Shown here piece after piece: positions 33,215 through 59,656 of a stretch of DNA of 64,000 bases. This DNA is from Pararhodobacter sp. SW119 (GTDB taxonomy: Bacteria > Pseudomonadota > Alphaproteobacteria > Rhodobacterales > Rhodobacteraceae). Numbering within the stretch: position 1 is the stretch's first letter; every line of letters starts with the position of its first letter. The notes beneath the pieces are model-generated. The model was not told the origin of the DNA, searched no databases, and saw only the letters and a list, made by a program, of their open reading frames with translations. Both the position numbers and the translations under genes were made by a program. The DNA is taken from the NCBI RefSeq assembly GCF_017811755.1, contig NZ_JADDJF010000001.1, positions 248,001 through 312,000 of the forward strand, given 5' to 3'.

Positions 33215-33257
33215 GCAATCAGCCTAGCGTGCAGCATTGTTTTTCACAACGCCGAAC

Positions 33258-33267: not shown

Positions 33268-33381
33268 AATAATTGACTCTGCATTTCAGATGGAGTTCCC
33301 TCGGAGCGTCAGCCCATCTGGGCGTGGCGGGAGGTGCAGATCGACCAAGGTCGCAAGATTTGCAGATCAGGGAGGAACAGA

Positions 33382-34371: not shown

Positions 34372-34430
34372 CCGTCACCTGATCGTGGCGCCGGGCCTGC
34401 GCGGCCCGGTCGTCGCTCCGGAGGCCAGCC

Positions 34431-36295: not shown

Positions 36296-36313
36296 GCGAG
36301 GAGAGGTGAAGCG

Positions 36314-40194: not shown

Positions 40195-40388
40195 GAACGG
40201 CCCTCCGGCTTGGAGGGTTGGTGATTTCGGCGCGCGGATCAAGCCGATTCCGGGCCGCCATTAGCGACAGGCGGTGTCGACTCGGTGTGGCACACGGCGG
40301 AGCCGGGCAGGGGGCCCAAGACCGGATCGCATCTGCCGGACAGCACGGGTTCATCAGAAGAGTGCAGTCCGAACCAGCGGAGCGACGA

Positions 40389-40799
40389 TCAGACGCGAGT
40401 GACCCGACCCGCCACGGCGTCGACCCGAAGCCGATCGCCGGGTGTCACAGCCTGCCAGAACCCCGTATCCGCGACCACGACAATGGGCACTTCCGCAAGA
40501 AAGGCGCCCTGCGTGACGGATGGGTCCGGCAATTCGCGCAGGACCAGCGCGGCGGGATGCGTTTCATGGACCTTGAGTTGATAGAGAAAGCGCCAGGCGC
40601 CGGCCGAGCCACGGGTTTCCGGCAGCACCAGAACGCGGCCCGTGACGACCTCGCCGCAGAGATCGCTGGACCGGCCGACAACCCGACCGGACCGGATGTC
40701 GAGGTCGCCCAGAAAGGAAAGCGCCGTTTGCGAGATCAGCGCAGGCCCCTCCGCCATGCCCTTGACCACGCCGCGCGCTTTCCAGCCGGTTTCAGTCAT
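40389..40799 (-). CDS. Aconitase X small (swivelling) subunit, DUF126
   Basis: A 136-residue DUF126 protein, the small beta-barrel-like subunit of a type II aconitase X. GPALISQTALSFLGDLDIRS matches the family opening and SDLCGEVVTGRVLVLPETRG the middle. In most relatives the next residues form an RGSSxxS loop; here they read RGSAGAWRF, so the loop is altered. AcnX enzymes are hydro-lyases with an iron-sulfur cluster and, depending on the clade, act on cis-3-hydroxyproline or mevalonate 5-phosphate. ATG 40799 lies inside the end of the large-subunit gene (8-bp overlap), so they are co-translated. Confidence 0.85.
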   Translation of the reverse strand: MTETGWKARGVVKGMAEGPALISQTALSFLGDLDIRSGRVVGRSSDLCGEVVTGRVLVLPETRGSAGAWRFLYQLKVHETHPAALVLRELPDPSVTQGAFLAEVPIVVVADTGFWQAVTPGDRLRVDAVAGRVTRV

Positions 40800-42057
40800 T
40801 CTGCCGCGCCCTTGGCACGAACCGCCCGGAAATCGCGGATTCCACCGCGCGTTCACTGGAGGTGAAAAGCGTGGGACACTGGATCATGTCGCGCACGTAG
40901 TGGGCCTGCTTGGCGGAATCGACAAGGATCGTGCGGATCTTCGGGGGCGTCACGCCGAGCGACGCATCGGGCGAGCAGGTGCGGGCGAAGTGGCACGAGA
41001 TCGGGCAGGTGTCCGAAACGACCTTCGCGCCGGCGGCCAGCAGCGGCGCCAGCAGCCCCGCATCGCGCGCCATCTGCCGCACGACCCGGTTGGTGGTGAC
41101 CCAGACCTCGACGCCTTCGGCGATCCTGCGTCCCGCGAAGAGCGCGGCATAATGCTTCATTTCCTCGAAGGACGCATGCGGGCAACCCAGATGCACCAGG
41201 TCGAACCCGGTCTCGTCGCCGGTGCAGAACCCGTCGAACACCTGCTGAAGGTCGGCCTCGGCGATGGCGACCTCGGGCAGGCCGGCCGCGTCCGCGTCGC
41301 TGTCGTAGGGCGGGGTCACGCCGGGCAGGATGAACATCGCGACACCGCCCGATGTCGCCATTCCGACCCCCAGGGCATCCAGGTCATCGAGGCCGGGCCG
41401 GAACGGCAGCCCGGTGATCAGCGGCACGCCGTTGCGTACGGCGGTGCCGATGGCATAGCCGAGCGCGGTGAAGTCGGCCGTTCCCCGCGGCGGGGCCGTC
41501 ACCCGCACCCGATGGGTGGCTTGGCGGTTCGCGTTCAGGTGCAGCCCGAAGCGCGGATACCGCCCGGTCATCCCGGCATAGACGGCAAAGAACCCGTCCC
41601 GGTTGGCGCGCGCACCGAGGACGGAATTGGCAAACACGGTCACGCCGCTTTCGATCGAGGCGATGTGCATGTTCCAGGTGGGCCAGTGTCCTGCCCAGTA
41701 CGGCGTGCAGGTGAAGGAGGTCGCGCTGCCCATGGCGCGGTGGGCGGCCTCGGCCCGCTTCTGCAACTGCCCCAGGCTGTCGGGCGCGCCGGTGCTGTGC
41801 CAGTCGCCCATGTCGGCATTGGCGATGTTGGTGGAGACCGGCACGACCATGCGCGCGCCCTGTTCGGCTGTCGCCTCGATCAGCTCCACATCGCCCTTGT
41901 AGAGCGCCATGCCGGCATGCACATGCGCATAGCCGATATCGACCATGTCGGGCGCATCATAGGCTTCGCCGAGTTGGACCAGCGCCTCCATCGCCAACTG
42001 CGCCGCCCGGCCCTGGTCGCCGGCCAGCAGGGCCTTGTCATGATCGGAAAGTCGCAC
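40792..42057 (-). CDS. Aconitase X large (catalytic) subunit, DUF521
   Basis: A 421-residue catalytic subunit. Typical AcnX parts are MRLSDHDKALLAGDQGRAAQ at the N-terminus, IGYAHVHAGMALYKGDVELI, CTPYWAGHWPTWNMHIASIE, FANSVLGARANRDGFFAVYA and the C-terminal region with CPISCHFART. Several cysteines (CTPYW, LGCPHAS, DTCPISC) can bind the iron-sulfur cluster. Substrate class cannot be fixed from the sequence; a hydroxy-acid or hydroxyproline dehydratase is likely. It sits 4 bp after the DUF108 gene and overlaps the small subunit, so these three genes form one minus-strand operon in block A. Confidence 0.9.
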   Translation of the reverse strand: MRLSDHDKALLAGDQGRAAQLAMEALVQLGEAYDAPDMVDIGYAHVHAGMALYKGDVELIEATAEQGARMVVPVSTNIANADMGDWHSTGAPDSLGQLQKRAEAAHRAMGSATSFTCTPYWAGHWPTWNMHIASIESGVTVFANSVLGARANRDGFFAVYAGMTGRYPRFGLHLNANRQATHRVRVTAPPRGTADFTALGYAIGTAVRNGVPLITGLPFRPGLDDLDALGVGMATSGGVAMFILPGVTPPYDSDADAAGLPEVAIAEADLQQVFDGFCTGDETGFDLVHLGCPHASFEEMKHYAALFAGRRIAEGVEVWVTTNRVVRQMARDAGLLAPLLAAGAKVVSDTCPISCHFARTCSPDASLGVTPPKIRTILVDSAKQAHYVRDMIQCPTLFTSSERAVESAISGRFVPRARQND

Positions 42058-42061
42058 GGGC

Positions 42062-42880
42062 TCAGCTGCCGATCCGCAGGGTGGCGCCTTCGCGGCGCAG
42101 CGCGGCGAGAATGCTCAGCGCCACCACCATGCTGGTGCGGTTGTTCTGCGGCGACGGATAGTTCTGCGAGGTCATCTCGAGCGAGACGGAGCTGGCCTCG
42201 ACGCTCAGCGTGTGGCGGGCCCCGGGCAGGGTGCCGTCGGCGCGTATCCGCACCTGGGTCCGGTCCAGACCGATGCCGGCCAGGGCCAGCGTGACCGCGA
42301 CGTTGAAATGGCGCGGGAAATGCCCTGCCGCCTCCCGCGCGCTTCCCTCCAGCACCGTGACCGGGCCGCTGGCGGCCGCGGCGAGGTCGATCCCTTGCTC
42401 ACGGATATACGGCTCGTGCTCGAAGGAGGCGGGGTTGATGTGCGAGGTGAGCACGACCGAGCGGATCTCGTCTTCGGCGGCGGCGCGAATGATGTCCAGG
42501 CCCGGCAGCGTTCCACCCGCCAGGTGAAGCGTGGCGCCGCTGGCTTCGGCGATGTCGATCAGGTCCATGTTGACCGCAAGCGCCCCGATGCTGACGGCGA
42601 CCACTTTGCCACCCGCGCGCAGTGTCGGCTCGACCACCGCGCGAAATCCGTCATAGGTCGCGCATTCCACCAGGATCGCGTCGAAGCCCGGAGCCTCGTC
42701 GGCCGAGATGATCGGGACATCCAGATTGAAGCCCGTCGCCGCCCGCTCCGCCTTGACCTTGTCGCGCGCGGCGATGGCCACGATCTCGATCGTCTCGTTG
42801 GCGTTGGTCGTCAGCTTGTGCGCGATCTGCTGGCCGACATTTCCGAACCCGCCGAGTACGATCCGCATCGCTTTCGCCAT
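42062..42880 (-). CDS. Aspartate-dehydrogenase-like (DUF108) NAD(P)-dependent enzyme
   Basis: A 272-residue two-domain oxidoreductase. The N-terminal Rossmann fold begins MRIVLGGFGNVGQQIAH, and the C-terminal domain starts at about residue 115 with SGATLHLAGGTLPGLDIIRA, then HFPRHFNVAVTLALAGIGLD with the conserved His-Asn of L-aspartate dehydrogenase (NadX-type) enzymes. It may reduce or oxidise an amino/imino acid or a related 2-substituted dicarboxylate. The start at 42880 gives MAKAM with a GGAAAG before it. It is divergent from the MmgE/PrpD gene, sharing a 90-bp promoter region with an ATGTATACAT palindrome, and precedes aconitase X. Confidence 0.85.
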   Translation of the reverse strand: MAKAMRIVLGGFGNVGQQIAHKLTTNANETIEIVAIAARDKVKAERAATGFNLDVPIISADEAPGFDAILVECATYDGFRAVVEPTLRAGGKVVAVSIGALAVNMDLIDIAEASGATLHLAGGTLPGLDIIRAAAEDEIRSVVLTSHINPASFEHEPYIREQGIDLAAAASGPVTVLEGSAREAAGHFPRHFNVAVTLALAGIGLDRTQVRIRADGTLPGARHTLSVEASSVSLEMTSQNYPSPQNNRTSMVVALSILAALRREGATLRIGS

Positions 42881-42922
42881 CTTTCCGCGCCCCTCATGAT
42901 CGTGTTGCTTATGTATTCTGAC

Positions 42923-42932
42923 ATGTATACAT
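42923..42932. promoter_or_regulatory. ATGTATACAT operator candidate
   Basis: A perfect 10-bp palindrome in the 90-bp gap between the divergent DUF108 and MmgE/PrpD genes, centred about 43 bp from either start. It shares TGTATACA with sites upstream of the ThDP-enzyme gene and of the TctC gene. A TTGCTT hexamer (42905-42910) with a 17-bp spacer to TACATT would place the -10 box of the MmgE/PrpD promoter over the palindrome, fitting repression. Confidence 0.62.
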
Positions 42933-42970
42933 TTATCGGTGCAAGACGAAAAGTTGTTGAGGAACAATTG

Positions 42971-44365
42971 ATGAGCGACCGCGCTCCGATCACGCGCCGC
43001 CTCGCCGCCTTCATTTCCGGTTTCGGGCCGCACTCGCTGCCCGAGGAGGTCATGGCCTATACCCGCACGCTGGCGACCGACGGCATCGGGGTCTTGTGCG
43101 CGGCGACCCATCCCAGCGTCACCGCCGCGCAAGGGATCGGAGATTTCGCTGAAGAGTTCGCAGGCGCCGGTCGCGCAACGCTGATCGGGCGCGGCCGCAA
43201 GGTGGACCCGGTCAACGCGGTGCTGGCCAACGGGACACTGGGCTATGCCGCCGATTTCGAGCCGCACCACCCGGAGGCGATCCTCCATCCGATCGCCGTG
43301 ATGATCCCCACCGCGCTCGCCCTCTCGGAAACCGAATCCCGCAGCGGTGCCGAGGCGTTGGCCGCCGTGGCGCTTGGCTGCGAGATCACCTATCGCGTTT
43401 CCATGGCGATGAACCCCCGCGCGCTTTACGAGCGCGGGTTTCACCCCTCGGCCATCGCCGGCAGCTTCGGCGCCGCCGCGGCTTCGGCATACCTGCTGGG
43501 TCTGGATACCGAACAGACCGTGCGCGCCCTGGGACTGGCTGGGCTGCAGACCTCGGGGCTGCTGGCCTGGCAGGACGATCCGCGCGAGGACGCGCGGCCG
43601 TTCCAGATGGGGCTTGCCGCGCGGAACGGGGTCATGGCGGCATTGCTGGCCCAACGGGGATTCGGTGCGCCCGATCGCATCTTCGATGGTGGCCACGTCG
43701 TGCTCGACGCCTATAGCGGCGTTGCCGATGCCGGCAAACTGGTCGACGGTCTGGGCCAGACCTGGGACGGGGTGATGGAACTGGCGATCAAGCCCTATTC
43801 CTCGGTGTCCTTCCTGCACCCGGCCCTCGACGCGCTTGTCGGGCTGCTGGAAGAATACGCGCTGAACTCATCCCAGATCGCGAAGATCTCCCTTCGCTTT
43901 GCCGCTGCGGGTGCGCATTGCGTCGACGACAACCCGCTCAAGGGTCATTCGGCGCAGTACATCCTGCCGGTGCGCGCGGCCATGGGGCGGCTTTCTTTCC
44001 TCGATCTCTTCATCGATCGCCGCGAAAGCGAGCCCGAGGTTGCCCGCCTTGCAGTCAGCACCGAGGTGATCCGCGACACCGGCGAGTTCGACGCGGCCTT
44101 TCCGGATTCCTACATGGGCGAAATCACGCTGACCCTGACCGACGGGCGCACGCTCGTGGCAAGGTCGGATGTCGCGCGCGGCTATCCCGAAGTCCCGATG
44201 ACGCAGGAAGAGCTGGATGCGAAATTCGACGAGGTGACATCCGCCGTCTGTTCGGACATGCGCCGAGAGGCACTCGCAGACGCCGCGACCGATCTTTATT
44301 CAGCGCCGGATGTTCGGACCTTGACCGGTATTCTCGCACAGCCACCCGATGCCCATGTCGCATGA
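42971..44365 (+). CDS. MmgE/PrpD family protein
   Basis: A 464-residue member of the family that includes 2-methylcitrate dehydratase, cis-aconitate decarboxylase and iminodisuccinate epimerase. The N-terminal helical domain includes RKVDPVNAVLANGTLGYAAD and a substrate-region FEPHHPEAILHPIAV (the usual Asp-Asp-x-His site is here Asp-Phe-Glu-Pro-His). Later parts are RGFHPSAIAGSFGAAAASAY and LAIKPYSSVSFLHPALDAL, with the family Lys-Pro-Tyr and His. ATG 42971 follows GAGGA and the long in-frame sequence upstream is antisense to the neighbour. Which reaction it performs cannot be read from the sequence; the altered acidic motif argues against plain methylcitrate dehydratase. Confidence 0.85.
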   Translation: MSDRAPITRRLAAFISGFGPHSLPEEVMAYTRTLATDGIGVLCAATHPSVTAAQGIGDFAEEFAGAGRATLIGRGRKVDPVNAVLANGTLGYAADFEPHHPEAILHPIAVMIPTALALSETESRSGAEALAAVALGCEITYRVSMAMNPRALYERGFHPSAIAGSFGAAAASAYLLGLDTEQTVRALGLAGLQTSGLLAWQDDPREDARPFQMGLAARNGVMAALLAQRGFGAPDRIFDGGHVVLDAYSGVADAGKLVDGLGQTWDGVMELAIKPYSSVSFLHPALDALVGLLEEYALNSSQIAKISLRFAAAGAHCVDDNPLKGHSAQYILPVRAAMGRLSFLDLFIDRRESEPEVARLAVSTEVIRDTGEFDAAFPDSYMGEITLTLTDGRTLVARSDVARGYPEVPMTQEELDAKFDEVTSAVCSDMRREALADAATDLYSAPDVRTLTGILAQPPDAHVA

Positions 44366-44421
44366 AGGTGGCGCCGGTGCCCGCAATTCGAAAAGCAGAA
44401 CATTGGTGAAAGGGTCGGGCC

Positions 44422-45117
44422 ATGTCCAACGAACTTAGATCCGCGCAGGCAAAGCCCGGCCCGTCATCGTCACAACGGGCCTATGCGCAGCTTCGCGAGC
44501 GGATCCTGCGGTCGCGGTTCCTGCCGAACCAGAAGATCAACGAGGTCGCGCTTGCCAGCGAGTTGAACATCAGCCGCACGCCGCTGCGCGAGGCGCTGCA
44601 CCGGCTTGTCGCCGAGGGGCTGCTGGTCGACCGGGGTCGGGGACTCTCGGTGCCCGGGCTCGAACCGAAGGTGGTTTTCGATCTGTTCGAGGCGCGGCTC
44701 GAGATCGAGTGCGCGACCGTCCGCCTCGCCTGCGAACGCGCCGAAGATGCGGAACTCGAGGCGCTGTCCGAATTCCTCAGCGAAAGCATGGCGGAGTCGC
44801 CCGACGCCTCAGTCGACCGGCTGATCGAACTGGATCTTCGGTTCCATGACACCATCGCCGCACTCGCCCGCAACGAGGTGTTGCGGCAGACACTCTCCAA
44901 CCTCAACGACCGTATCCATCTGGTCCGCTGGATCGCCATGGAGGGCCGACGCGAGCGCACACAATCGGAGCATCGTGACATCCTCGACCACATGTGCGCG
45001 CGCGACAAGAACGCCGCCATTGAGGTGATGCGCGAACATATCCTGCATCGGAACGACGACATCCTCGTGGCGATCAAGGCGGCGTACGGGCACGTCTACA
45101 CGCTGTCGTCGGCCTGA
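44422..45117 (+). CDS. GntR/FCD family regulator of block A
   Basis: A 231-residue regulator with a GntR winged helix (INEVALASELNISRTPLREA at about residues 35-54) and an FCD ligand-binding domain (EARLEIECATVRLACERAED, DLRFHDTIAALARNEVL, SEHRDILDHMCARDKNAAIE) with the His and Asp residues that bind a metal in this family. It lies between the MmgE/PrpD and SDR genes in the same direction. I infer that it binds the TGTATACA palindromes at 42923, 45935 and 51031, since it is the only regulator inside this group of genes. Confidence 0.9.
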   Translation: MSNELRSAQAKPGPSSSQRAYAQLRERILRSRFLPNQKINEVALASELNISRTPLREALHRLVAEGLLVDRGRGLSVPGLEPKVVFDLFEARLEIECATVRLACERAEDAELEALSEFLSESMAESPDASVDRLIELDLRFHDTIAALARNEVLRQTLSNLNDRIHLVRWIAMEGRRERTQSEHRDILDHMCARDKNAAIEVMREHILHRNDDILVAIKAAYGHVYTLSSA

Positions 45118-45157
45118 CGCCGGCGTGCAAGGCGGCACAGTCGAAGGAGCGCGTAGC

Positions 45158-45898
45158 ATGGAACGTCACATCATCATCGGATCGGGCTCCGGTATCGGCG
45201 CCGCGCTTGCGCGGATTCTGGCTGCGCCGGGAATGGAGTTGCTGCTGCACACCGGCCAGAACGCCGATCGCCTGCGCGGTGTCGCCGCGGACTGCGAGGC
45301 GAAGGGGGCAAGGGTCGACACCTGCCTGGGCCTGACCGAGGAGCCGCATCTGGCAGAACGGGTTTCAGACTGGCTGGACCAGCTGCCCGCCGGCGGGTTT
45401 ACCACCTTCACCTTCGCCGCCGGTTACGCGAAACTCGGGACGCTCGACACCGCCGACGCGAAGGCGCTGCGCACCGCGCTCGATGCGATGCCGATGGCCT
45501 TTCAGACCCTGGCGGCGCTTGCCTCGCGGAAATTGCCGGATCGGCGCGGCCGCATCCTGTGTGTCAGCGCCTTCGGGGCGCACCGGACCAAGACCCACAG
45601 CTATGCCCCCACCGCCCCGGCGAAAGCGGCGCTGGAGGCCCAGGTGCGCCTCTTCGCCGCCAATCTTGCGCCGCGGGGGATCACGGTGAACGCGCTGGTC
45701 CCCGGCTTCATCGCCAAGGAGGCCGGAACGCCCTCCTCGCTGACGCCGGAGCAGTGGACCAAGGTGACGGACACGATCCCGATGGCGCGCATCGGCCGCC
45801 CCGAAGAAGTCGCCGCGGCGGGGGCGTTCCTGCTGTCGGAGGGCGCGGGCTACATCACTGGCCAGAACCTGCACGTGAACGGCGGCCTGACCCTGTAG
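45158..45898 (+). CDS. Short-chain dehydrogenase/reductase with displaced active-site Tyr
   Basis: A 246-residue SDR fold enzyme. The N-terminal GSGSGIGAALARIL is the nucleotide loop, FAAGYAKLG replaces the usual NNAG motif, and ITVNALVPGFIAKEAGTP and GYITGQNLHVNGGL are normal C-terminal parts. In the active site the usual Tyr-x-x-x-Lys reads Thr-Ala-Pro-Ala-Lys, with a Tyr three residues earlier (SYAPTAPAK), so Tyr and Lys are seven apart. The protein may be a divergent reductase or may have lost activity. ATG 45158 has AAGGAG upstream. It follows the GntR regulator by 40 bp and probably belongs to the same operon. Confidence 0.85.
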   Translation: MERHIIIGSGSGIGAALARILAAPGMELLLHTGQNADRLRGVAADCEAKGARVDTCLGLTEEPHLAERVSDWLDQLPAGGFTTFTFAAGYAKLGTLDTADAKALRTALDAMPMAFQTLAALASRKLPDRRGRILCVSAFGAHRTKTHSYAPTAPAKAALEAQVRLFAANLAPRGITVNALVPGFIAKEAGTPSSLTPEQWTKVTDTIPMARIGRPEEVAAAGAFLLSEGAGYITGQNLHVNGGLTL

Positions 45899-45914
45899 GG
45901 CGGGCCTTCGATCA

Positions 45915-45944
45915 TTGCGAAACTGCCTGCATGTATGTATACAA
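45915..45944 (+). promoter_or_regulatory. Promoter with embedded TGTATACA operator before the ThDP-enzyme gene
   Basis: TTGCGA at 45915-45920 and TATACA at 45938-45943 are separated by exactly 17 bp, a good sigma-70-type layout. The -10 box is the centre of the palindromic octamer TGTATACA (45936-45943, counting the T and G before it), the core shared with the sites near 42923 and 51031. A repressor bound there would block RNA polymerase directly. The ThDP-enzyme gene starts about 70 bp downstream. Confidence 0.6.
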
Positions 45945-46010
45945 CCACGGATACAGTTTTTTGCCACGGCTTTCCTGATCGGTTCGGGATAGCCGAGAGG
46001 AGGGTTCTTC

Positions 46011-47702
46011 TTGGAAAACAGGCTCAACGGCGCCGAAGCCATGGTGCGCATGCTGGAAGCGCATGGGGTGAAGCACATCTTCGGCTTGTGCGGCGACACG
46101 ACGCTTCCCTTTTACGATGCCATGCATCTGCTCGACCACGACATCGACCATATCCTGACCCGCGACGAACGTAGCGCCGCCTACATGGCGGATGGCTATT
46201 CGCGCGTGACCGGCCGGCCCGGGATTTGCGAGGGCCCGTCCGGCGGTGGGGCGACCTATATCCTGCCGGGCCTGATCGAGGCTTCCGAAAGTTCCTATGC
46301 GATGCTTGCCATCACCACCGACATCTCGGTCGGGACCTATGGGAAGTACCCGCTGACAGAGGTCGATCAGGAGGCGCTGATGCGCCCGCTGACTAAGTGG
46401 AACACGGTGATCCGGCACGCCGATCACATTCCGCGGATGGTGCGCGCCGCCTTCCGCGCGATGACCACCGGGCGGCCCGGCGCTGCGCATCTGGGCTTGC
46501 CCTATGACATCCAGTACCATCCGGTCGAACCCACCGACATCTGGGCCGACCCGAAGCTTGCCAGCTATCCGGCCTATCCGACCGGCCCGGACGCGGGCGC
46601 GATCGAGGCGGCGATCGATGCCATCCTGTCGGCCCGGAACCCGCTGATCGTCTGCGGCGGCGGCGTTGTCGTGGCGGGTGCCATGGACGAGCTCGAGCGT
46701 ATTGCCACGCGGCTCGACATCGCGGTGGCGACGTCGATTTCGGGGCAGGGGTCGCTGGCGGACGTTCACCCCAATTCGCTGGGCGTGGTGGGTTCGAACG
46801 GCGGCACCGATCAGACCTGGGAGCTGATGGAAGTGGCCGACCTGATCGTGTTCATGGGGTGCCGCGCCGGGTCGACCACGACCTCGCGCTGGGAGGCGCC
46901 GAGTGTCGGCACGCGGATCGTGCATTTCGACGTCGACCCGTTGGTGATCGGGGCCAACCTGCCGACGGAGGTCGGCGTGGTGGGCGACCTGCGGATGTCG
47001 CTGGAGATGGTGAACGCGGAACTCGACCGGCGGGGACAGGGGGGCGCCACCTTCGGGGGGGCGGCGGCCGTCGCGGACATCAAGCGCCGCAAGTTCGAGA
47101 TCTTCGACCGGATCGCGGCAGGGACGGAGCGGCCGATCCGACCGGAGCGCGTGATTTCGGACCTGATGAAGGTTCTGCCCCCCGATGCGACCGTGGTGTC
47201 CGATCCCGGGACGTCGTGCCCCTACTATTCGGCGTATTACAGCCAGCAACTCGCCGGGCGGTACTTCATCACCAACCGTGCGCATGGGGCGCTTGGCTAC
47301 GCGCTGGCGGCGTCGCTGGGCGCGTGGTACGGGCGGCCGGGCAGCAAGACGGTTGCGCTGATGGGCGACGGGTCCTTCGGGTTCACCGTGGGCGAGCTGG
47401 AAACGGTCTGTCGGTCGCGCGCGCCGATCACCTTCATCGTCTTCTCGAACTCCAGCTACGGCTGGATCAAGGCAAGCCAGATGGCCGACAAGGGGTCGCG
47501 CTATTACAACGTCGATTTCGACCGGGTCGATCAGGCGGCGGTCGCGGCGGCCTATGGCGTGAAATCCTGGCGGGTGGAGGACCCCGAGGCGCTGGAGGGC
47601 GTGCTGCGCGCGGCGGTGGCGCACGACGGCCCGACGCTGGTCGATATCGTCAGCCAGCCGCTGGAGGAGGCCAACGCGCCGGTGCGCCGCTGGATGGGCT
47701 GA
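46011..47702 (+). CDS. Acetolactate-synthase-like ThDP-dependent enzyme
   Basis: A 563-residue protein with the three-domain layout of acetolactate synthase/2-oxo-acid decarboxylases. The N-terminal PYR domain has the catalytic Glu in TRDERSAAYMADGYSR; a central domain binds or once bound FAD/nucleotide (NPLIVCGGGVVVAGAMDEL); the C-terminal PP domain has GDGSFGFTVGELETV followed by the Asn of the ThDP/Mg motif (FSNSSYG). It starts at TTG with GAGAGGAGGG upstream. No regulatory small subunit gene is present, so a catabolic decarboxylase or carboligase is more likely than branched-chain amino-acid synthesis. Its substrate in block A is unknown. Confidence 0.88.
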   Translation: MENRLNGAEAMVRMLEAHGVKHIFGLCGDTTLPFYDAMHLLDHDIDHILTRDERSAAYMADGYSRVTGRPGICEGPSGGGATYILPGLIEASESSYAMLAITTDISVGTYGKYPLTEVDQEALMRPLTKWNTVIRHADHIPRMVRAAFRAMTTGRPGAAHLGLPYDIQYHPVEPTDIWADPKLASYPAYPTGPDAGAIEAAIDAILSARNPLIVCGGGVVVAGAMDELERIATRLDIAVATSISGQGSLADVHPNSLGVVGSNGGTDQTWELMEVADLIVFMGCRAGSTTTSRWEAPSVGTRIVHFDVDPLVIGANLPTEVGVVGDLRMSLEMVNAELDRRGQGGATFGGAAAVADIKRRKFEIFDRIAAGTERPIRPERVISDLMKVLPPDATVVSDPGTSCPYYSAYYSQQLAGRYFITNRAHGALGYALAASLGAWYGRPGSKTVALMGDGSFGFTVGELETVCRSRAPITFIVFSNSSYGWIKASQMADKGSRYYNVDFDRVDQAAVAAAYGVKSWRVEDPEALEGVLRAAVAHDGPTLVDIVSQPLEEANAPVRRWMG

Positions 47703-47759
47703 GGCCGGGGCCGAGAGGGATCAGCCGGGGCTTTCCGCGCCGAAACGGTGAGGAATGGA

Positions 47760-47782
47760 GGGGTGTGCAAGTTGCACACCCC
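47760..47782. terminator. Inverted repeat between convergent operons
   Basis: GGGGTGTGCAA and its complement flank a single G, giving a 9-bp stem with a 5-base loop as RNA. It lies 57 bp after the ThDP-enzyme gene and 110 bp beyond the convergent tctA gene, the expected place for a two-way terminator. No T-run follows in either direction; a shorter AT-rich repeat (TAAAGAT ... ATCTTTA, 47807-47835) is further on. An operator is the alternative. Confidence 0.45.
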
Positions 47783-47892
47783 GATCAAGTCACTGAAAGA
47801 ACGGCATAAAGATTTTTCTGTTAACCTGATCTTTACCCGGATTCCAGGCGCATCGCGGTTTGTAGATCGCTCCCGCCGTCGGGTGGGCCGCC

Positions 47893-49380
47893 TCAGCCGA
47901 CCTTCGGCGCGCGGATCCGCAGGAAGTAGATGAACAGGAACATCATCGCGTAAAGCCCGAGGCTGATCGGGCTCTGGAAGAAGATCATCACGTCGCCCTG
48001 CGAGGTGATCAGCGCGCGGCGCATGTAAAGCTCCAGATACGGCCCGAGGATGAAGCCCATGAGCATCGGCACCAGCGGATAGGACATCAGCCGGAGCAGA
48101 TACGCGAAGATCCCGATCCCCAGCGCCACCCACATCTGAAAGACCGAAAAGGTGGAGGCATAGGTCCCCACCATGGCCACCATGGCGATGAAGGAATAGA
48201 GCACCGCGCGGTTCATCCGGGCCAGCCGGATGTAATAGGGCCCGAAGACCAGCACCGAGAGGAAGACGAAGACCGCCGCCACCATCAGCGCGGCAAACAT
48301 GGGCGCGATCGTCGCCATCTCGTTAGTCAGGAGGCCCGGTCCGGGCACCAGCCCGTGGATCAGAAGCACGCCGAAGATGATCGCCGTGACCGCGTCGCCC
48401 GGAATGCCGAGGGTCAGGAGCGGCACGACCGCGCCACCGCACATGGCGTTGTTGGCGGATTCTGCGGCCGAGAGCCCCTCGTGCGAGCCGTTGCCGTATT
48501 CCTCGCGTTTCTTCGACACACGCTTTGCCTCGGCATAGGCGACGAAGGACGCCATCGAGGCCCCGCCGCCGGGAAGCATGCCGATCAGCACGCCGATGAT
48601 CGAACTCTTGACGTAGGTCCACCAGCCGATCTCTCGGATGTCCGCCCATTTCGGCAGGAAGTCGCGGTGGCGCACCTTGAAATTCGGCGCATCGAGCGCG
48701 CCCCGGGGCGGGGAGCCGCCCTGCAGGAACAGCTCGCAGACGGCGAAGAGGCCGATGACCGCCGGCAGCAGCAGCACGCCCTCGATCAGGTTGTGACTGC
48801 CGAAATCGAAGCGGCCCTGCGCCACCATGTTGTCGAAGCCCACGGTCGAGATCATCAGGCCCAGGGTCACCGCGACGAGGCTTTTCCAGATCGAGCCCTT
48901 GGCGACGATGACCACGGTCACCACTGCCATGAAGACCAGCGCGAACTTGTCGGGGGTGCGAAAGAGAAGCGCGAACTGGCTCATCGGGATGGCGACGAAC
49001 ATCAGCACCAGCGCGCCGAGGACGCCGCCGATGGAGGACGCCAGCGCATCGAGGCTCAGCGCCTTCGCGCCTTCGCCGCGCTTGGTCAGCGGGTAGCCTT
49101 CCATCGTGGTGATGGCGCCGCCGGCCGCGCCGGGAATGTTGACGGTGATGCCCGTCACGCTGCCCGCGTAGATGCCGGACATGAAAATCGCCATGACCAT
49201 GACCAGCGCGTTGGTCAGCTCCATCGCGAAGGTGAAGGGCAACAGAAGCGCGATGGCCAGCGTCGCGGTCAGTCCGGGGATGGCCCCAAAGAGCAGCCCC
49301 ATAAGGAACCCGCCCACCAGGTAGAAAAAGGTCACCGGATCGGTGAGCGCGCCGAAGCCCTGAAGAATTTCCCCGGACAT
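47893..49380 (-). CDS. tctA: Tripartite tricarboxylate transporter, large permease TctA
   Basis: A 495-residue membrane protein with 11-12 helices. GLTATLAIALLLPFTFAMEL, GITVNIPGAAGGAITTMEGY and GGAVVPLLTLGIPGDAVTAI are the diagnostic TctA motifs. Its start overlaps the tctB stop. With TctB and the receptor TctC it forms a sodium- or proton-driven importer for carboxylates; the substrate is not fixed by sequence. Confidence 0.96.
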   Translation of the reverse strand: MSGEILQGFGALTDPVTFFYLVGGFLMGLLFGAIPGLTATLAIALLLPFTFAMELTNALVMVMAIFMSGIYAGSVTGITVNIPGAAGGAITTMEGYPLTKRGEGAKALSLDALASSIGGVLGALVLMFVAIPMSQFALLFRTPDKFALVFMAVVTVVIVAKGSIWKSLVAVTLGLMISTVGFDNMVAQGRFDFGSHNLIEGVLLLPAVIGLFAVCELFLQGGSPPRGALDAPNFKVRHRDFLPKWADIREIGWWTYVKSSIIGVLIGMLPGGGASMASFVAYAEAKRVSKKREEYGNGSHEGLSAAESANNAMCGGAVVPLLTLGIPGDAVTAIIFGVLLIHGLVPGPGLLTNEMATIAPMFAALMVAAVFVFLSVLVFGPYYIRLARMNRAVLYSFIAMVAMVGTYASTFSVFQMWVALGIGIFAYLLRLMSYPLVPMLMGFILGPYLELYMRRALITSQGDVMIFFQSPISLGLYAMMFLFIYFLRIRAPKVG

Positions 49381-49847
49381 CAGAACCGGCCCGCCGGCAG
49401 GAAAAGCTCGAACAGGTAGGCGAAGAAGAGCCAGCCCGACACGGTGATCCCGGCCGCGATCAGGGCCGAGGTCAGCACCGCGCGGACGCCGCCCAGGCGG
49501 TCCTGCTCGAACAGCCAGGCGACGGCGAAGGTGTAGCCCGCCGTCGCGATCCAGTAGCCAAGCGGCTCGAACGCCCAGACGAAGCCTGCGGTCAGCGCGA
49601 TCAGGGCCAGCGTGCGCAGCGCGAAGGTTCCGCCGACCTCGTCATCGGGGTCGGGGGTGCCGCGCAATTCCTGGACCAACACGCCGAGCGCGCCGATTGC
49701 GAGTACCACGACCAGGATCAGCGGCATGAAGGCCGGGCCGGGTTCGCCCCGCGCGAAGGGGAAGGTCAGCGACAAGGCCTGATGCAGATAGGCGGCATCG
49801 AGCGCGAGGATGAAAAGGGCGAAAATGACCTGGCGGTTGAGGGTCAC
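49380..49847 (-). CDS. tctB: Tripartite tricarboxylate transporter, small permease TctB
   Basis: A 155-residue protein with four membrane helices. FPFARGEPGPAFMPLILVVV is the typical TctB stretch after the first helix. It sits between tctC (100 bp) and tctA (4-bp overlap). Confidence 0.92.
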   Translation of the reverse strand: MTLNRQVIFALFILALDAAYLHQALSLTFPFARGEPGPAFMPLILVVVLAIGALGVLVQELRGTPDPDDEVGGTFALRTLALIALTAGFVWAFEPLGYWIATAGYTFAVAWLFEQDRLGGVRAVLTSALIAAGITVSGWLFFAYLFELFLPAGRF

Positions 49848-49947
49848 TGGCGGTTCTTCCCCTGGCTTCTTGATCTGCGAAGCGACCCGGCTGCTGCGGA
49901 CAACCGGGTCGCGATGGAACTTCGGGCAAGTGTCGCCGTGCGACGGA

Positions 49948-50934
49948 TCAGTCGCCGATAAGGCCTTCCTCGGTCAGCCGGTCAAGCATCTGCGTCGCGC
50001 GTTCCTGCATCCGTTCGACATATTCCTTCGCCGCCGGACCGTCCATCCAGTAGGCATTCATGCCGGTTTCTTCCGCGCGCTGCTGGAATTCGGGGTCGTC
50101 GAAGCCCGCCTTCATCGCGGTGATCAGCGTCTGCTGGATGTCCTCCGGCGTCTCGGCGGGAACCGCCAGAACCCGCATGCCGCCCCAGGCCACGTCATAG
50201 CCCAGTTCCTTGAAGGTCGGCACGTCGGGCAGGTTCGCGTCACGCTCCTCGCCCATGACGGCCAGCACGTTGACCTGGCCGGCTTCATGCGCGGTGGCCA
50301 CGGTGGCGTAGCTCAGGCTGCCGGCGTCGTTCTCGCCCGACAGCAGCGCCTCGCGCTGTTCGGCCGAGCCGTGGGGGAAGGGGATGTGATTGACCTCGAT
50401 CCCCAGTTGGTCCGCCATGTCGAGGGCGTGAAGATGCCAGATCCCGGCGATGCCCGAGTTCGACACCGTCACCTCGCCCGGCCGTTCCTCGGCGGCGGCG
50501 ATGAAGTCGTCCAGGGATTCCCATCCGGTGTCGGCATTGACGGCCAGCACCGTGGGATAGAGCGTCACCATGGCGAGGTAGCTGAGGTCGGCGGTATCGT
50601 AGCCCGGCACCAGGTCGCGGTAGGGAACGGTGATCATGCTGTCCCAGGTCAGGGTGCCGATGGTGTAGCCGTCGGGGCGCGCGCGCATCAGCCGCAGCAC
50701 GCCGACGCCCGACTGCGCGCCGGTGATGTTCTGCGTGCGGATGCCGACGCCCAGCGGCTCCTCGACATACTGCAGGAAGGTGCGCATGACGGAATCGGTG
50801 CCGCCGCCGGCGCTCCAGGGCATGATGTGGGTCAGGTCGCGGGCGGGAAAGTCCTGCGCCGCGGCGCCCACCGCGCCCGACGCCACAAGGGCGGCACCCG
50901 CCAGGGCGGTGCGAATGCTGTGTCCAAGGGTCAT
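49948..50934 (-). CDS. tctC: Tripartite tricarboxylate transporter receptor TctC (Bug family)
   Basis: A 328-residue periplasmic receptor with a signal peptide ending in GAAAQDF. Family pieces are LTHIMPWSAGGGTDSVMRTF, TGAQSGVGVLRLMRARPDGY (ligand-binding loop) and LPDVPTFKELGYDVAWGGMR. ATG 50934 follows AGAGAGG; the much longer in-frame sequence upstream crosses the promoter region. It begins the tctCBA operon, and a TGTATACA palindrome lies about 100 bp upstream. Confidence 0.94.
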   Translation of the reverse strand: MTLGHSIRTALAGAALVASGAVGAAAQDFPARDLTHIMPWSAGGGTDSVMRTFLQYVEEPLGVGIRTQNITGAQSGVGVLRLMRARPDGYTIGTLTWDSMITVPYRDLVPGYDTADLSYLAMVTLYPTVLAVNADTGWESLDDFIAAAEERPGEVTVSNSGIAGIWHLHALDMADQLGIEVNHIPFPHGSAEQREALLSGENDAGSLSYATVATAHEAGQVNVLAVMGEERDANLPDVPTFKELGYDVAWGGMRVLAVPAETPEDIQQTLITAMKAGFDDPEFQQRAEETGMNAYWMDGPAAKEYVERMQERATQMLDRLTEEGLIGD

Positions 50935-51030
50935 GGTCAACCTCTCTGTCAGTTGTGACGGGCACCAGACGCATCCTTGATGCGGCGCCCGTCGGGATCC
51001 ATTCTGTGCCGGTTTGAGCACGGGCTTGTT

Positions 51031-51050
51031 TGTATACATCATGCTATACA
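51031..51050. promoter_or_regulatory. TGTATACA operator candidate with a second half-site
   Basis: The palindrome TGTATACA (51031-51038) is followed by a second TATACA (51045-51050). It lies between the divergent tctC and VOC-protein genes, about 97 bp from one start and 84 bp from the other, in an AT-rich patch. It is the third copy of this octamer in promoter regions of block A. Confidence 0.58.
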
Positions 51051-51121
51051 TTAAAGAGTGCATTGCAACGGTTTTCGCGCCCTCTTGTCCGGGCCGCGCA
51101 GGGAAGTCAGGAACACGGGTC

Positions 51122-51994
51122 ATGAAATCAGCCAACCAACCCGCGGATCGCGAAGTCACCCTGGACCACAGCGGCCATTTCGTCGCCGATGCCGACGCCG
51201 CCCGGCGCGCGCTGGAGGAGCTTGGCTTCACCGTCACGCCGTTCTCGGCGCAGGTGCAGCCGGACCCCGAAACCGGGGCGGAACGCCTGACCGGGACCGG
51301 GAATGTCTGTGTCATGCTGCCGGCGGGGTATCTGGAGTTCCTGGTCCACACCGCCGACACGCCGATCGGACGGGAATTCAGCGCCGCGCTTGGCCGTCGC
51401 GCGGGCCTGCATCTCTGCGCCTTCGGGGTCGCGGATGCCGCTGCCCGCCACCGGGAACTGACGGAAGCGGGGGTCGAGATGCGCCCGCTCGTTCATTTCT
51501 CGCGCGCGGTGGAAACGGTCGTCGGGCATCGGACCGCCGCCTTCACCGTCGCGCGCATGGCGGCGGGATCCATGCCCGAAGGCCGCGTCCAGGTCCTGAC
51601 CCATCACGATGAGGCCGCCATGTGGCAGCCGCGCTGGACCCGGCACGCCAACGGCGCGCAGGCGCTTCAGGCGATCCTCGTCTCGGCGCCGGACCCGCAG
51701 GAGGCCGCCGCGCGTTTCGCCCGGCTGCTGGGCCGCGCGCCCGAGGAAACCGAGGCGGGACTGCGCATCGCGCTTGATCGCGGCGCGGTCGAGTTTCTGC
51801 CCGAGGACGCAGCAACCGAGCTGATCGGGCAGGCGGTGGACCCCGGGCGGTCCTGTTTCGTCGGGCTGCGCGTCACCGTGGCGGACCTGTCCTTCCTGCG
51901 CGCGCGGCCCGAGGCGAAAGCGGTCGGTGACACGCTCGTTCTGCCCTTCGCGCCGGCGCTGGGGCGCGGTGCCTGGCTGTTCCAGACAGCCTGA
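51122..51994 (+). CDS. VOC family (glyoxalase-like domain) protein
   Basis: A 290-residue protein with two vicinal-oxygen-chelate modules. The N-terminal part has a DHSGHFVADADAARRALEEL strand with the first possible metal His and GYLEFLVHTAD with a Glu; the second module has VQVLTHHDEAAMWQPRW, typical of the glyoxalase-like PF13468 type, and AVEFLPED. Such proteins bind a divalent metal and act as lyases, isomerases or ring-opening enzymes. ATG 51122 is preferred to earlier in-frame codons because these overlap the promoter region. It is divergent from tctCBA and shares its operator, so it probably acts on the same substrate route. Confidence 0.78.
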   Translation: MKSANQPADREVTLDHSGHFVADADAARRALEELGFTVTPFSAQVQPDPETGAERLTGTGNVCVMLPAGYLEFLVHTADTPIGREFSAALGRRAGLHLCAFGVADAAARHRELTEAGVEMRPLVHFSRAVETVVGHRTAAFTVARMAAGSMPEGRVQVLTHHDEAAMWQPRWTRHANGAQALQAILVSAPDPQEAAARFARLLGRAPEETEAGLRIALDRGAVEFLPEDAATELIGQAVDPGRSCFVGLRVTVADLSFLRARPEAKAVGDTLVLPFAPALGRGAWLFQTA

Positions 51995-52045: not shown

Positions 52046-53305
52046 TCAGGCGAAGCGCGCCGGGCTGAACGGGGCAAGGTCGATCTCGGGTTCCTCGCCG
52101 GCGACAAGCTGCGCGTTCAACCGCCCCGTGCGCGCCGACGACACAAGCCCGACATGGCCATGCCCGAAGGACTGGACGACGCCCGAAAGCCTTGATGCCC
52201 TGCCGATCACCGGCAGTCCATCGGGCGTGCTGGGCCGGTGCCCCATCCAGACGCGCCCCTCGGCAGTGTCGAGGCCGGGAAAAACCTTGGCGAGATGCGT
52301 GCGCAGGACCTCGGCGCGGCGCCAGTTGGGGGCGGCGTCGAGGCCTGCGATCTCGACCTGTCCCGCGCAACGGACGCCGTGCTGCAGCCGGCTGATCACC
52401 ACCTTCCGGTCGCTGATCATGACGCCGGTCGTCGGGCCGGGCAGGTTGTCGCCGCCGGCGATGGTGACGTGATAGCCGCGCTCGCTTTCCAGCGGCACGC
52501 GGTCGCCGGCCTTGATCGCCAGCGCGCGGGAATGCGCACCCGCGGCGATCACCGCGGCGCTGCAGGCAATCTCGCCCTGCGTCGTCTCCACCGCGGTCAG
52601 CTTGCCGCCGCTTTCGCGAAACCCGGTGGCGCGGGCGATGATGCGCCGCGCGCCCAGCGTTTCGGCATGCGCAACCAGACCGGCGCAATAGGCGCCGGGG
52701 TCGCGGCACTGCCCGCCTTCGGGAACGTGGATGGCGAAGCGGTATTCCGGCGCAAGATCGGGCTGGCGGCGGGCCAGTTCCTCGCCCTCGACCTCCTCGA
52801 ACGCGATGCCGAGGTCGCGCCGGATGTCCCAGGCCATCGCATCAGCGGCATAGGCGGCGCGATCGGGGTAGACATGCATCAGCCCGCATTCCGCGTCGAT
52901 GAGGTGCGACAGGCCCGCGCGGGCGGCGATTTCGGCATGCAGCGCGGGGGCGCCGACCAGCAGCGCGCGCAGATGCGCGGCGATTGTCCTCAGCTTTGCC
53001 TCGGTCGAGGCCGAGGCAAGGTAGCGCCAGAGCCACGGCGCAACCCGTGGCAGATAGGTCGGACGCAGGCTCAGCGGTCCCAGCGGGTCCATCAGCCACC
53101 GCGGCACCTGCTTCCAGACGCCGGGCGCGGCGGGCGGCAGGACGGAATGCGACGAGAGCCACGCCGCGTTGCCGTAGCTGGCGGCCTGTTCGCCGCCCGG
53201 CGGATCGGGATCGACCAGCACCACGCCGAAGCCGCGATCGGCCAGCTGGACCGCGGTATGGGCGCCGATCAGCCCCGCCCCGATGACAACCACATCCGTT
53301 TTCAT
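52046..53305 (-). CDS. DadA-type FAD-dependent D-amino-acid dehydrogenase, copy 1
   Basis: A 419-residue flavoprotein of the DAO/DadA family that oxidises D-amino or N-methyl amino acids to oxo acids and passes electrons to the respiratory chain. It shows DVVVIGAGLIGAHTAVQLAD at the N-terminus, EQAASYGNAAWLSSHSVLPP, the ESERGYHVTIAG active-site region and the C-terminal GRVWMGHRPSTPDGLPVIGR with GHGHVGLVSS. I prefer ATG 53305 (11 nt from GGAAGG); ATG 53314 or GTG 53317 would add three or four residues. It is convergent with the VOC gene and opposite in strand to its paralogue at 56665. Confidence 0.9.
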   Translation of the reverse strand: MKTDVVVIGAGLIGAHTAVQLADRGFGVVLVDPDPPGGEQAASYGNAAWLSSHSVLPPAAPGVWKQVPRWLMDPLGPLSLRPTYLPRVAPWLWRYLASASTEAKLRTIAAHLRALLVGAPALHAEIAARAGLSHLIDAECGLMHVYPDRAAYAADAMAWDIRRDLGIAFEEVEGEELARRQPDLAPEYRFAIHVPEGGQCRDPGAYCAGLVAHAETLGARRIIARATGFRESGGKLTAVETTQGEIACSAAVIAAGAHSRALAIKAGDRVPLESERGYHVTIAGGDNLPGPTTGVMISDRKVVISRLQHGVRCAGQVEIAGLDAAPNWRRAEVLRTHLAKVFPGLDTAEGRVWMGHRPSTPDGLPVIGRASRLSGVVQSFGHGHVGLVSSARTGRLNAQLVAGEEPEIDLAPFSPARFA

Positions 53306-53398
53306 CGTGCCCATCACCTTCCGTCGTTCCTGTCGTTTTCCGTACCCGGCCGCCTGTGCCCAGGAATGTATGCAGAATTGTGGACCGGACGCAACGCG

Positions 53399-54447: not shown

Positions 54448-55194
54448 TCAGCCGCGCAGCGCCGGGAAGGACGGCGTCGGATCGGCAAAACGCGGCGGCA
54501 CCAGGGCCGAGTGGAACCAGGTGACGAAGCTTGCGATCGAAAAGACCGGCAGGCCGGTGGCGGCCCGGATATCGGCCGCATAGGGCACCATGTTCGTGCA
54601 TTCCAGCACCAGCGCGCCCAGTTCCGGATGCGCGCGCTGCAGCGCCAGCGCGGCGGAAACGTTGTCCTCGCGCGCCGCCGCCACGTCGAGTTCCGGCTCG
54701 TTGCCGATGATCACGCGGGTGAATTCGCGCCCGCCCTCGGTGGTGCCGATCGGTGTGTCCGCCGGCACGCCCGCACGCTCCAGATGCAGCGGCGTCAGGG
54801 TGGAGGCCGATATCGTCAGGATCCCCGCCCGACGCCCCGGCGCAAGCAGACTGTTCACCGTCGCCACCTGCATCAGCGACGAGGTCGCCACCGGCACCGG
54901 CACCGCCGCCGCGATCTCGTCCTGGAAGATCGACAGGAAGCCGCAGTTGGTGGTGATGCCGTCGGCGCCTTCCGCGACCAGGTCGCGCGCGGCGTCGATG
55001 AAGGCGTCGAGCATCCCCTCGGCCCGGCGGCGCACCACCAGGTCGGGGCTGGCGTTGCGCACCACGCGGTAGAGGACGGGAAAGGGCCAGCTGAGCGCGT
55101 TGCCCATGTCGCCGGGGATGCGCGGAAAGCGCGCCTCGAGCATCAGGATGCCCACCGCCGCCCCGTAGACCGCCTTGCCGCCGCCAACCTTCAT
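54448..55194 (-). CDS. Aspartate/glutamate racemase family protein
   Basis: A 248-residue Asp/Glu/hydantoin-racemase-fold protein with two catalytic-type cysteines: one in ITTNCGFLS near residue 87 and one in ALVLECTNMVPY near residue 192. Both cysteines argue for a racemase; related enzymes with one cysteine are decarboxylases or isomerases (arylmalonate or maleate type). ATG 55194 starts a normal N-terminus; in-frame sequence upstream is Arg/Pro-rich. It is divergent from the enolase-type gene and close to two D-amino-acid dehydrogenase genes, which suggests that L- and D-forms of the substrate are interconverted before oxidation. Confidence 0.83.
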   Translation of the reverse strand: MKVGGGKAVYGAAVGILMLEARFPRIPGDMGNALSWPFPVLYRVVRNASPDLVVRRRAEGMLDAFIDAARDLVAEGADGITTNCGFLSIFQDEIAAAVPVPVATSSLMQVATVNSLLAPGRRAGILTISASTLTPLHLERAGVPADTPIGTTEGGREFTRVIIGNEPELDVAAAREDNVSAALALQRAHPELGALVLECTNMVPYAADIRAATGLPVFSIASFVTWFHSALVPPRFADPTPSFPALRG

Positions 55195-57984: not shown

Positions 57985-58015
57985 CGACAAGCCGCAACCG
58001 ACAGGGAGAATGATG

Positions 58016-58993: not shown

Positions 58994-59034
58994 CCACTCG
59001 CTTCGGGACGCGGCCGCCTGCGCGCCGCGTCCCG

Positions 59035-59090
59035 CCACTCTGGTCCGACCTCCACCACTTTTGTCCGACCCCCATCACTTTTGTCCGACC
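59035..59090 (+). repeat. Three 16-bp direct repeats with 20-bp period
   Basis: Copies at 59035-59050, 59055-59070 and 59075-59090 read CCACTCTGGTCCGACC, CCACTTTTGTCCGACC and TCACTTTTGTCCGACC. They fill the 117-bp gap between the TRAP receptor and small-permease genes. The first contains TGGTCCGACC, close to the TGGTCnGACCA operator core of FadR-like GntR proteins. The 20-bp period puts the copies nearly on one face of the helix. Confidence 0.7.
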
Positions 59091-59110
59091 CAACGACGAC
59101 GGAGGCGATC

Positions 59111-59644: not shown

Positions 59645-59656
59645 GGGGCTTCCTGG

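Follow-up and report, generated by a model that had tools for sequence, protein, structure and literature searches.

A probable catabolic regulon around an orphan aconitase X clade and a widespread ThDP enzyme in Pararhodobacter sp. SW119

What does an aconitase X (AcnX) enzyme do among a DUF108 protein, an MmgE/PrpD enzyme (PrpD), a thiamine diphosphate (ThDP) enzyme and a TctCBA importer, and do such genes belong together at all? The question is raised by a stretch of 64,000 nucleotides from Pararhodobacter sp. SW119 (Rhodobacteraceae; contig NZ_JADDJF010000001.1, positions 248,001 to 312,000), hereafter the window, in which these genes lie at 40389-51994 and are called block A. An earlier note, made from the letters of the window, had read them as one inducible route for an imported polycarboxylate. 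Block A is a real unit with the gene set as described, and we regard it as a real catabolic regulon, as yet without an assigned pathway, around an orphan AcnX clade and a widespread ThDP enzyme that looks like a hub. The families and strands first assigned to its genes were all borne out by Pfam; together with one gene added here (DAO1), they are the following.

40389..40799, minus strand: AcnX small subunit (swivel domain; PF01989, 2.5e-19), overlapping the large-subunit gene
40792..42057, minus strand: AcnX large subunit (PF04412, 8.8e-106), the sole AcnX of the genome
42062..42883, minus strand: DUF108 / aspartate-dehydrogenase-like enzyme (PF01958, 6.4e-23; Asp_DH_C/NAD_binding_3)
42971..44365, plus strand: MmgE/PrpD enzyme (PF03972, 1.4e-56; MmgE_PrpD N and C domains)
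44422..45117, plus strand: FCD-type GntR regulator (PF07729, 2e-27; PF00392, 1.1e-15)
45158..45898, plus strand: SDR oxidoreductase (PF13561, 4.7e-39)
46011..47702, plus strand: ThDP enzyme (three ThDP domains, PF02775/02776/00205)
47893..49380, minus strand: TctA, large membrane subunit (PF01970, 2.6e-127)
49380..49847, minus strand: TctB, small membrane subunit (PF07331, 2e-18)
49948..50934, minus strand: TctC, solute receptor (PF03401, 7.7e-41)
51122..51994, plus strand: VOC/Glyoxalase_3 protein (PF13468, 3.6e-25)
52046..53317, minus strand: DAO1, flavin adenine dinucleotide (FAD) amino-acid-dehydrogenase-like enzyme (PF01266, 1.1e-54), beyond the coordinates first given for the block

The AcnX domain is accompanied by its swivel domain, as expected of an AcnX enzyme, and TctA, TctB and TctC occur together, as in a tripartite tricarboxylate transporter. 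The content of the block stood, with two gene starts amended: the small subunit more likely begins at 40799 (136 aa) than at 40856, the median in relatives being 137 aa by gene calls, and for PrpD there is an ATG at 42971.

That these genes belong together is indicated by their company in other genomes. Forty AcnX loci (55-88% identity) were collected by scanning genome contigs with an AcnX large-subunit alignment built from the window and one relative. Ten were counted as Rhodobacteraceae (L034-L042 and L068); the others are Alphaproteobacteria and Rhodospirillales metagenome-assembled genomes (MAGs), two Stella, a Burkholderiales MAG, Chitinasiproducens, Acidimicrobiia and others. The loci are partly non-independent (L072/L073, L057/L058 and L037/L068 are very close pairs, and L040 is the contig of genome G215), and several stop at contig ends. 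A gene was scored as recurrent when a single tblastn segment gave 40% identity with 60% coverage. On this scale the AcnX small subunit recurs in 39 of the 40 loci, DUF108 in 30, PrpD in 26, SDR in 14, ThDP and VOC in 13 each, GntR in 10, DAO1 in 9 and each Tct gene in 8; three types of enzyme encoded beyond the block and described below recur as well (racemase type 21, MLE 9, DAO2 6). The DeoR, EamA and TRAP genes of the window are found in none. As a negative control, 43 window genes located before 39.2 kb or after 61 kb were searched in the same way, and 41 of them have no match in any locus, the other two (61070 and 61831) recurring in two. Moreover, gene order is freely reshuffled among lineages, and the co-occurrence is therefore more than inherited synteny. 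The gene-neighbourhood check that had been suggested for block A thus finds its families keeping company with AcnX. As a side observation, the stretch 61070-63363 carries enoyl-CoA-hydratase-like and acyl-CoA-ligase-like genes, relatives of which lie near AcnX in L070 and L071 (Chitinasiproducens palmae and a Proteobacteria MAG).

The same comparison fixes the borders. The left one holds, since the DeoR gene at 39433-40203 belongs to the genes absent from all 40 loci. The right one had been drawn too early: in six Rhodobacteraceae loci (L034, L036, L037, L039, L040 and L068) a DAO1 homologue comes directly after the AcnX genes, as an operon neighbour of AcnX, and DAO1 is for this reason counted in the block. 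The outer parts of the set are linked to lineage. The Tct genes accompany the block in 8/10 Rhodobacteraceae loci and 0/30 others, the VOC gene in 8/10 and 5/30, and GntR in 9/10 Rhodobacteraceae loci. Among 295 genomes of the family, PrpD (E <= 1e-90) occurs in three and DUF108 (at least 50% identity) in the same three, two of which have AcnX of this clade. Stretches of three further genomes (G083, G159 and G267) with a DUF108 of 35-40% identity hold no other block gene, except for a TctA fragment match in G267.

Is the unit also under common control? The earlier note had pointed to a palindrome shared by three promoter regions of the block, and TGTATACA is indeed present in each of them.

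42924..42931, no strand: operator TGTATACA, flanked on each side by sequence resembling a half-site and lying some 40 bp ahead of both DUF108 and PrpD
45936..45943, no strand: operator TGTATACA, 67 bp before the ThDP gene
51031..51038, no strand: operator TGTATACA, between TctC and VOC

Together with the copy at 33259, this makes four occurrences of TGTATACA in the window, where shuffles of its sequence predict 0.02. The bare 8-mer is scarcely enriched genome-wide, with eight sites (four of them in the window) and six for the reversed pattern. Within the 4.51 Mb genome the extended form TGTATACA-N8-TRCA is confined to the three block promoters (reversed control 0); this pattern was written after the sites of the window and its relatives had been viewed, so that its uniqueness is descriptive and not a blind test. 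In the 682 kb of the 40 AcnX loci there are 31 exact copies of TGTATACA, of which 29, judged from our own gene calls, lie within about 125 bp before a gene of a cluster family, the ten Rhodobacteraceae loci accounting for 27 and L067 for two. The remaining two are L034:20258 and L060:12847. Many sites have half-sites about 12 bp off. Furthermore, the operator moves with the genes, as seen for PrpD in L038, for a DAO-racemase pair in L041 and for VOC/Tct in L042, and it also precedes the relocated DAO1 homologue of L041 and the 36%-identical DAO of L067. In L034 it stands before a ThDP gene of just 36% identity; this gene (L034:4329-) occupies the matching place, which suggests replacement by a distant homologue. 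The operator is thus conserved at promoters of the set in relatives, and neighbourhood co-occurrence, together with this conservation in Rhodobacteraceae, argues for the claim of a single regulon. The FCD-type GntR protein encoded between PrpD and SDR is presumed to be the natural ligand of TGTATACA. Regulator and operator are mostly missing outside Rhodobacteraceae, and the enzyme set is therefore older or wider than such control. A scan for consensus sigma-70 promoters found none, with 1.2 expected.

The copy at 33259 was considered as a further member of the regulon and judged unlikely, as it does not match the extended pattern and lies beside another FCD regulator and TRAP operon. That neighbouring region (32522-39191), outside the block, carries an FCD-GntR regulator, TRAP DctPQM, malonyl-CoA decarboxylase and then a gene that, from its sequence, reads as AMP-ligase-like, and it looks like a malonate operon.

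What, then, does the AcnX enzyme itself do? In a tree of 70 AcnX rows, 42 rows group as one clade with support of 100/99: the window, the 40 loci and L003, which is identical to L040. The other 28 rows, taken from among the matches listed in the family genomes, comprise 20 from the same family with the hydroxyproline-dehydratase pattern and two small clades of six and two rows without it; long branches meet in this tree and the relations between clades are unsure. The small clades (L004, L005, L007, L008, L010 and L012; L018 and L025) lack the hydroxyproline-dehydratase residues and are a side observation. In a plasmid search, AcnX gave 160 records, all below 60% identity. Residues were mapped on solved enzymes via printed alignments, with numbers counted by hand, and their roles are those stated in PMC8184944. 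The equivalents of Cys110, Cys283 and Cys342, which hold the cluster in type II enzymes, are C117, C292 and C351 in 41/41 rows. E136, S137, K383 and Y387 of the large subunit are likewise present in 41/41 rows, and W121, H124, W125 and C355 are also invariant in these rows. In the small subunit, Ser65 (136-aa numbering) aligns with the catalytic Ser within an invariant GSAG.WR motif, and S65, W69, R70 and Q74 are kept in 38/38 aligned rows.

The residues for dehydration in general are thus kept in the clade, and those of the pocket are changed. The bacterial AcnX activity reported in PMC5144071 and PMC8184944 is on hydroxyproline, and a rival reading takes the enzyme for a dehydratase of cis-3-hydroxy-L-proline. 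This reading is most improbable here: Asp203, Ile206, Thr72, Trp35 and Cys510 of that enzyme are replaced in the clade by His47, Met50, Gly67(S), Leu30(S) and Ile/Met, with H47 and M50 in 39/41 rows each, whereas the pattern is kept in 20 of the 28 rows of other AcnX clades at the large-subunit positions checked. Asp203 binds the proline nitrogen according to PMC8184944. The NCBIfam scores (275 bits for the large and 59 bits for the small subunit) are compared with a cut-off of 700 set for the fused protein. As to the archaeal phosphomevalonate dehydratase (type IIb), its set of Ala47(L), Ser50(L), Asn53(L), Val64(S) and Leu27(S) is not reproduced: Gly67(S) stands for Val64, Asn53 falls within an insertion, the Ser50 column holds no Ser and the Leu agrees, the match of Ala47 being uncertain because of gaps near residue 47. 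On pocket residues and tree both activities were rejected, and this AcnX forms a clade of its own that has the type II Cys positions and lacks, as judged from the alignments, the residues specific to the substrate of either known activity. His47 together with Arg70, five residues past Ser65, would fit a pocket with room for an extra carboxylate or negative group. Bacterial types IIc-IIf are described in PMC8184944 and PMC10040528 as being of unknown function.

Clues to the substrate class come from the partner enzymes and from the importers. DUF108 aligns with solved L-aspartate dehydrogenases and keeps the aspartate-dehydrogenase C-terminal domain and motif, with a best score below the NCBIfam L-aspartate dehydrogenase cut-offs (195 bits vs 253). 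DAO1 is D-amino-acid-dehydrogenase-like (213 bits vs a cut-off of 383). The ThDP enzyme is similar to acetolactate synthases and to glyoxylate carboligase, passes no cut-off among the matches listed (25 of 57 families), and has BbmA as its best solved match (254 bits). Among solved proteins, PrpD comes closest to IRG1 of Bacillus subtilis (109 bits) and to iminodisuccinate epimerase (93 bits); over the solved chains of cis-aconitate decarboxylase (IRG1) and of the epimerase its scores range from 77 to 109 bits. Of their local motifs, the window protein retains the His of GFHP, and it has RPFQ where they have KP(L/M)H. Importers at AcnX loci vary by lineage, from Tct to a TAXI-like TRAP system (NMT1_3 receptor and fused DctM) and to family-3 and family-8 ABC receptors, the family-3 amino-acid-type binding protein being found in L067 and, by clustering, in L043. 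Near AcnX, L058 has a gene (12531-13655) like 3-hydroxy-D-aspartate aldolase BhcC (420 bits, under the cut-off of 690), with a homologue in L057 by clustering. On an Agrobacterium plasmid the annotation places a racemase next to an aspartate-dehydrogenase-domain protein, an oxidase set of the opine-oxidase-like type and a RidA protein, and L046/L047 have near AcnX an FAD oxidase set that we take to be opine-oxidase-like. L058 and L057 also carry, as a side observation, three 2-hydroxyacid-dehydrogenase-family genes near AcnX.

Two substrate classes have to be weighed against this evidence. The first, in line with the polycarboxylate of the earlier note, is a hydroxylated di- or tricarboxylate without nitrogen, which AcnX would dehydrate as in the aconitase superfamily, PrpD would isomerise or decarboxylate and the ThDP enzyme would cleave as the 2-oxo acid, with DUF108 as a hydroxy-acid-type dehydrogenase. 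The Tct importer, the solved relatives of PrpD, the GntR-ThDP-TctCBA units on Pacificitalea and Qingshengfaniella plasmids (below) and a pocket in which His47 and Arg70 could suit carboxylates agree with this proposal, but the recurrent Asp/Glu-type racemase, the FAD amino-acid-type oxidase and the aspartate-dehydrogenase motif kept by DUF108 speak against it, and we consider it somewhat unlikely. An imported polycarboxylate may still be the substrate; an acidic amino acid is somewhat likelier, because DUF108, an Asp/Glu-type racemase, an FAD amino-acid-type oxidase and, in two loci, a family-3 receptor recur with AcnX.

Sulfonate catabolism was also tried and dropped, the matches being weak in a search that did not extend to sulfo-lyases: the window racemase gave 23 bits for cysteate racemase (cut-off 190), the ThDP enzyme 243 for sulfoacetaldehyde acetyltransferase (cut-off 620), and a gene of L069, outside the window, 175 for sulfolactate dehydrogenase (cut-off 500). 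In L069 (a bacterium MAG), L072 and L073 (both titled Acidimicrobiia) a racemase gene stands on each side of an AcnX of this clade; these loci further contain three Ldh_2-family genes, a distant PrpD, a ThDP enzyme, an aminotransferase and an acyl-CoA dehydrogenase.

How far does the regulon extend beyond block A? Two further features of the window bear on this question.

54448..55194, minus strand: Asp/Glu/hydantoin-racemase-type enzyme (PRK07475; NF005679, 301 bits, cut-off 231)
55526..60970, plus strand: sister module with an MLE-type enzyme, DAO2 and TRAP DctP/DctQ/DctM (Pfam; same order in L097, L100 and L108)

The ThDP enzyme is found in 50/295 family genomes (E <= 1e-150). In the best 30 of these 50 loci, which include the window and G215 and together span 139 kb, TGTATACA lies 29-91 bp upstream of the ThDP start in 21, and no other copy of the 8-mer occurs in the 139 kb. 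With the best match per genome taken, a racemase gene starts within 4 kb of the ThDP gene in 35/50 genomes and within 10 kb in 37/50. Annotated plasmids show several arrangements: racemase-GntR-ThDP in Ruegeria pomeroyi; GntR-ThDP-TctCBA in Pacificitalea; GntR-ThDP-TctCBA in Qingshengfaniella, with a VOC gene unmatched to that of the window (tblastn, 1e-10); ThDP with MLE-DAO-TRAP in Ruegeria AD91A; and, in Leisingera, ThDP with an annotated cystathionine gamma-lyase, a TAXI-TRAP system, an FAD oxidase, a racemase and a class V aminotransferase. TGTATACA stands upstream of ThDP in all six annotated plasmid stretches, and the ThDP enzyme looks like the hub of related regulons with varying partners. 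A sister form of the locus (racemase, GntR, TGTATACA, ThDP, MLE, DAO2, DctPQM) is whole in L097, L100 and L108 and partial in L099, L101, L102 and L103, L098 having the racemase only; the family-genome AcnX scan gave no AcnX match in the genomes of L097-L103. The window copy of this sister locus is without ThDP and GntR genes of its own, and the ThDP enzyme of the block may therefore serve both; the module at 55526..60970 is a possible partner of block A. Trees do not support the window racemase (54448) and MLE (55526) as orthologues of the copies at AcnX loci, and group both with the sister locus. The reading in the earlier note is thus supported in part, with DAO1, a racemase partner and a ThDP enzyme common to related regulons to be added to it.

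The varied partners of a ThDP gene with upstream TGTATACA (TctCBA; a racemase only; racemase-MLE-DAO-TRAP; the Leisingera set with its cystathionine-gamma-lyase-like gene) and the free shuffling of gene order could also mean that several short pathways under one regulator have been assembled here, their products meeting at the ThDP enzyme, with AcnX-DUF108-PrpD and Tct-VOC as separate additions. Such a composite is unlikely in our view, as DUF108 (30/40) and PrpD (26/40) track AcnX across lineages and all three block promoters share an extended operator that occurs at no other place in the genome.

The explanation tentatively preferred here is one inducible regulon for an acidic alpha-amino acid, probably beta-hydroxylated, with the FCD-GntR protein exerting control through TGTATACA operators; this explanation is quite possible, though short of probable. 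The gene set, its recurrence with AcnX, the common operator and the AcnX clade with its altered pocket residues are observed, whereas regulator-operator binding, the substrate class and every chemical step are what we infer from the genes. TctCBA would import the amino acid, most likely beta-hydroxylated and supplied as several stereoisomers, and PrpD and racemase-type enzymes would set its configuration. Ser65 of the AcnX small subunit would remove the C2 proton, and the C3 hydroxyl would be lost to the Fe-S cluster held by C117, C292 and C351; the resulting enamine would tautomerise to an imine, which DUF108 would reduce to an amino acid, unless DUF108 runs in reverse. The isomer not taken by AcnX would be oxidised by DAO1; the ThDP enzyme would act on the 2-oxo acid so formed, by cleavage or decarboxylation, and SDR would reduce the product, ending in central metabolites. 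In its most specific form, which must be regarded as quite improbable, the clade would be a new type of Fe-S dehydratase, acting on a hydroxy amino dicarboxylate such as a single stereoisomer of 3-hydroxyaspartate; DUF108 would then serve as imine reductase, and DAO, ThDP and SDR would form a parallel branch.

Several observations weigh against the preferred explanation. The scheme assigns no secure step to PrpD or to VOC; non-amino polycarboxylates would also suit TctCBA and the PrpD family, and the amine-binding Asp is replaced by His47 in the AcnX clade. The window DUF108 has no match in the Agrobacterium stretch at 1e-10. As for control, the GntR regulator is present in 1/30 non-Rhodobacteraceae loci, 3 of the 31 TGTATACA sites are beyond Rhodobacteraceae, one of them before an unrelated gene, and no exact operator precedes DAO1 in the window, just the one-mismatch TGTATGCA at 53367, a kind of site of which 1.65 are expected per window. 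ThDP at 40% identity is missing from 4/10 Rhodobacteraceae AcnX loci, of which L035 spans just 3.5 kb, L034 has the 36% homologue, and L038 and L041 have none within 10 kb. Finally, a Shinella replicon has PrpD-DUF108-ThDP in a row with neither AcnX of this clade nor the operator nearby, and in G014, the third of the family genomes with PrpD and DUF108, the set PrpD-MLE-DUF108 lies at the end of a contig and AcnX gave no match; because of these two sets AcnX is perhaps an optional branch.

From this work an orphan AcnX clade gains conserved partner enzymes, an importer with a measurable ligand and an operator usable as a reporter, and a ThDP unit in 50/295 family genomes suggests a common dietary compound of these bacteria to which no pathway is assigned. 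If the most specific form is true, a new Fe-S dehydratase route would make every stereoisomer of the hydroxy amino dicarboxylate usable to these bacteria, and it would feed a ThDP hub common to many Rhodobacteraceae regulons with the TGTATACA operator.

No named pathway for this gene set was found in the part of the literature covered by the search, in agreement with the earlier note, and the likenesses to described systems are partial. The beta-hydroxyaspartate cycle consists of the BhcABCD enzyme families. If the substrate is 3-hydroxyaspartate, block A would share with it a dehydration to an imine followed by imine reduction, and L057/L058 have the BhcC-like gene; the dehydratase and reductase of block A are of other families, and the aldolase-like gene is below its cut-off and outside the block. 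The EutABC hydroxyectoine module comprises a racemase-type enzyme, a dehydratase and an imine reductase, and block A follows the same logic with different dehydratase and reductase families. This logic is partly alike in 3-hydroxyproline catabolism, as described in PMC5144071. At the level of the enzyme, the hydroxyproline dehydratase (type I) has the same AcnX fold, active-site Glu-Ser, Lys and Tyr, catalytic Ser, and equivalents of Cys273 and Cys508. It differs in being a single chain, whereas the AcnX of block A has two subunits, in its third ligand (Cys510, against a type-II-like C292 here) and in ring- and nitrogen-binding residues that are changed in this separate clade. The archaeal phosphomevalonate dehydratase (type IIb) has the same two subunits and the same three Cys ligand positions, but in block A Gly67(S) replaces Val64, the neighbourhood is catabolic and the Asn53 stretch corresponds to an insertion in the archaeal enzyme. 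AcnX types IIc-IIf, compared by their description in Watanabe (2021), are like the AcnX of block A bacterial, two-subunit and without the hallmark residues.

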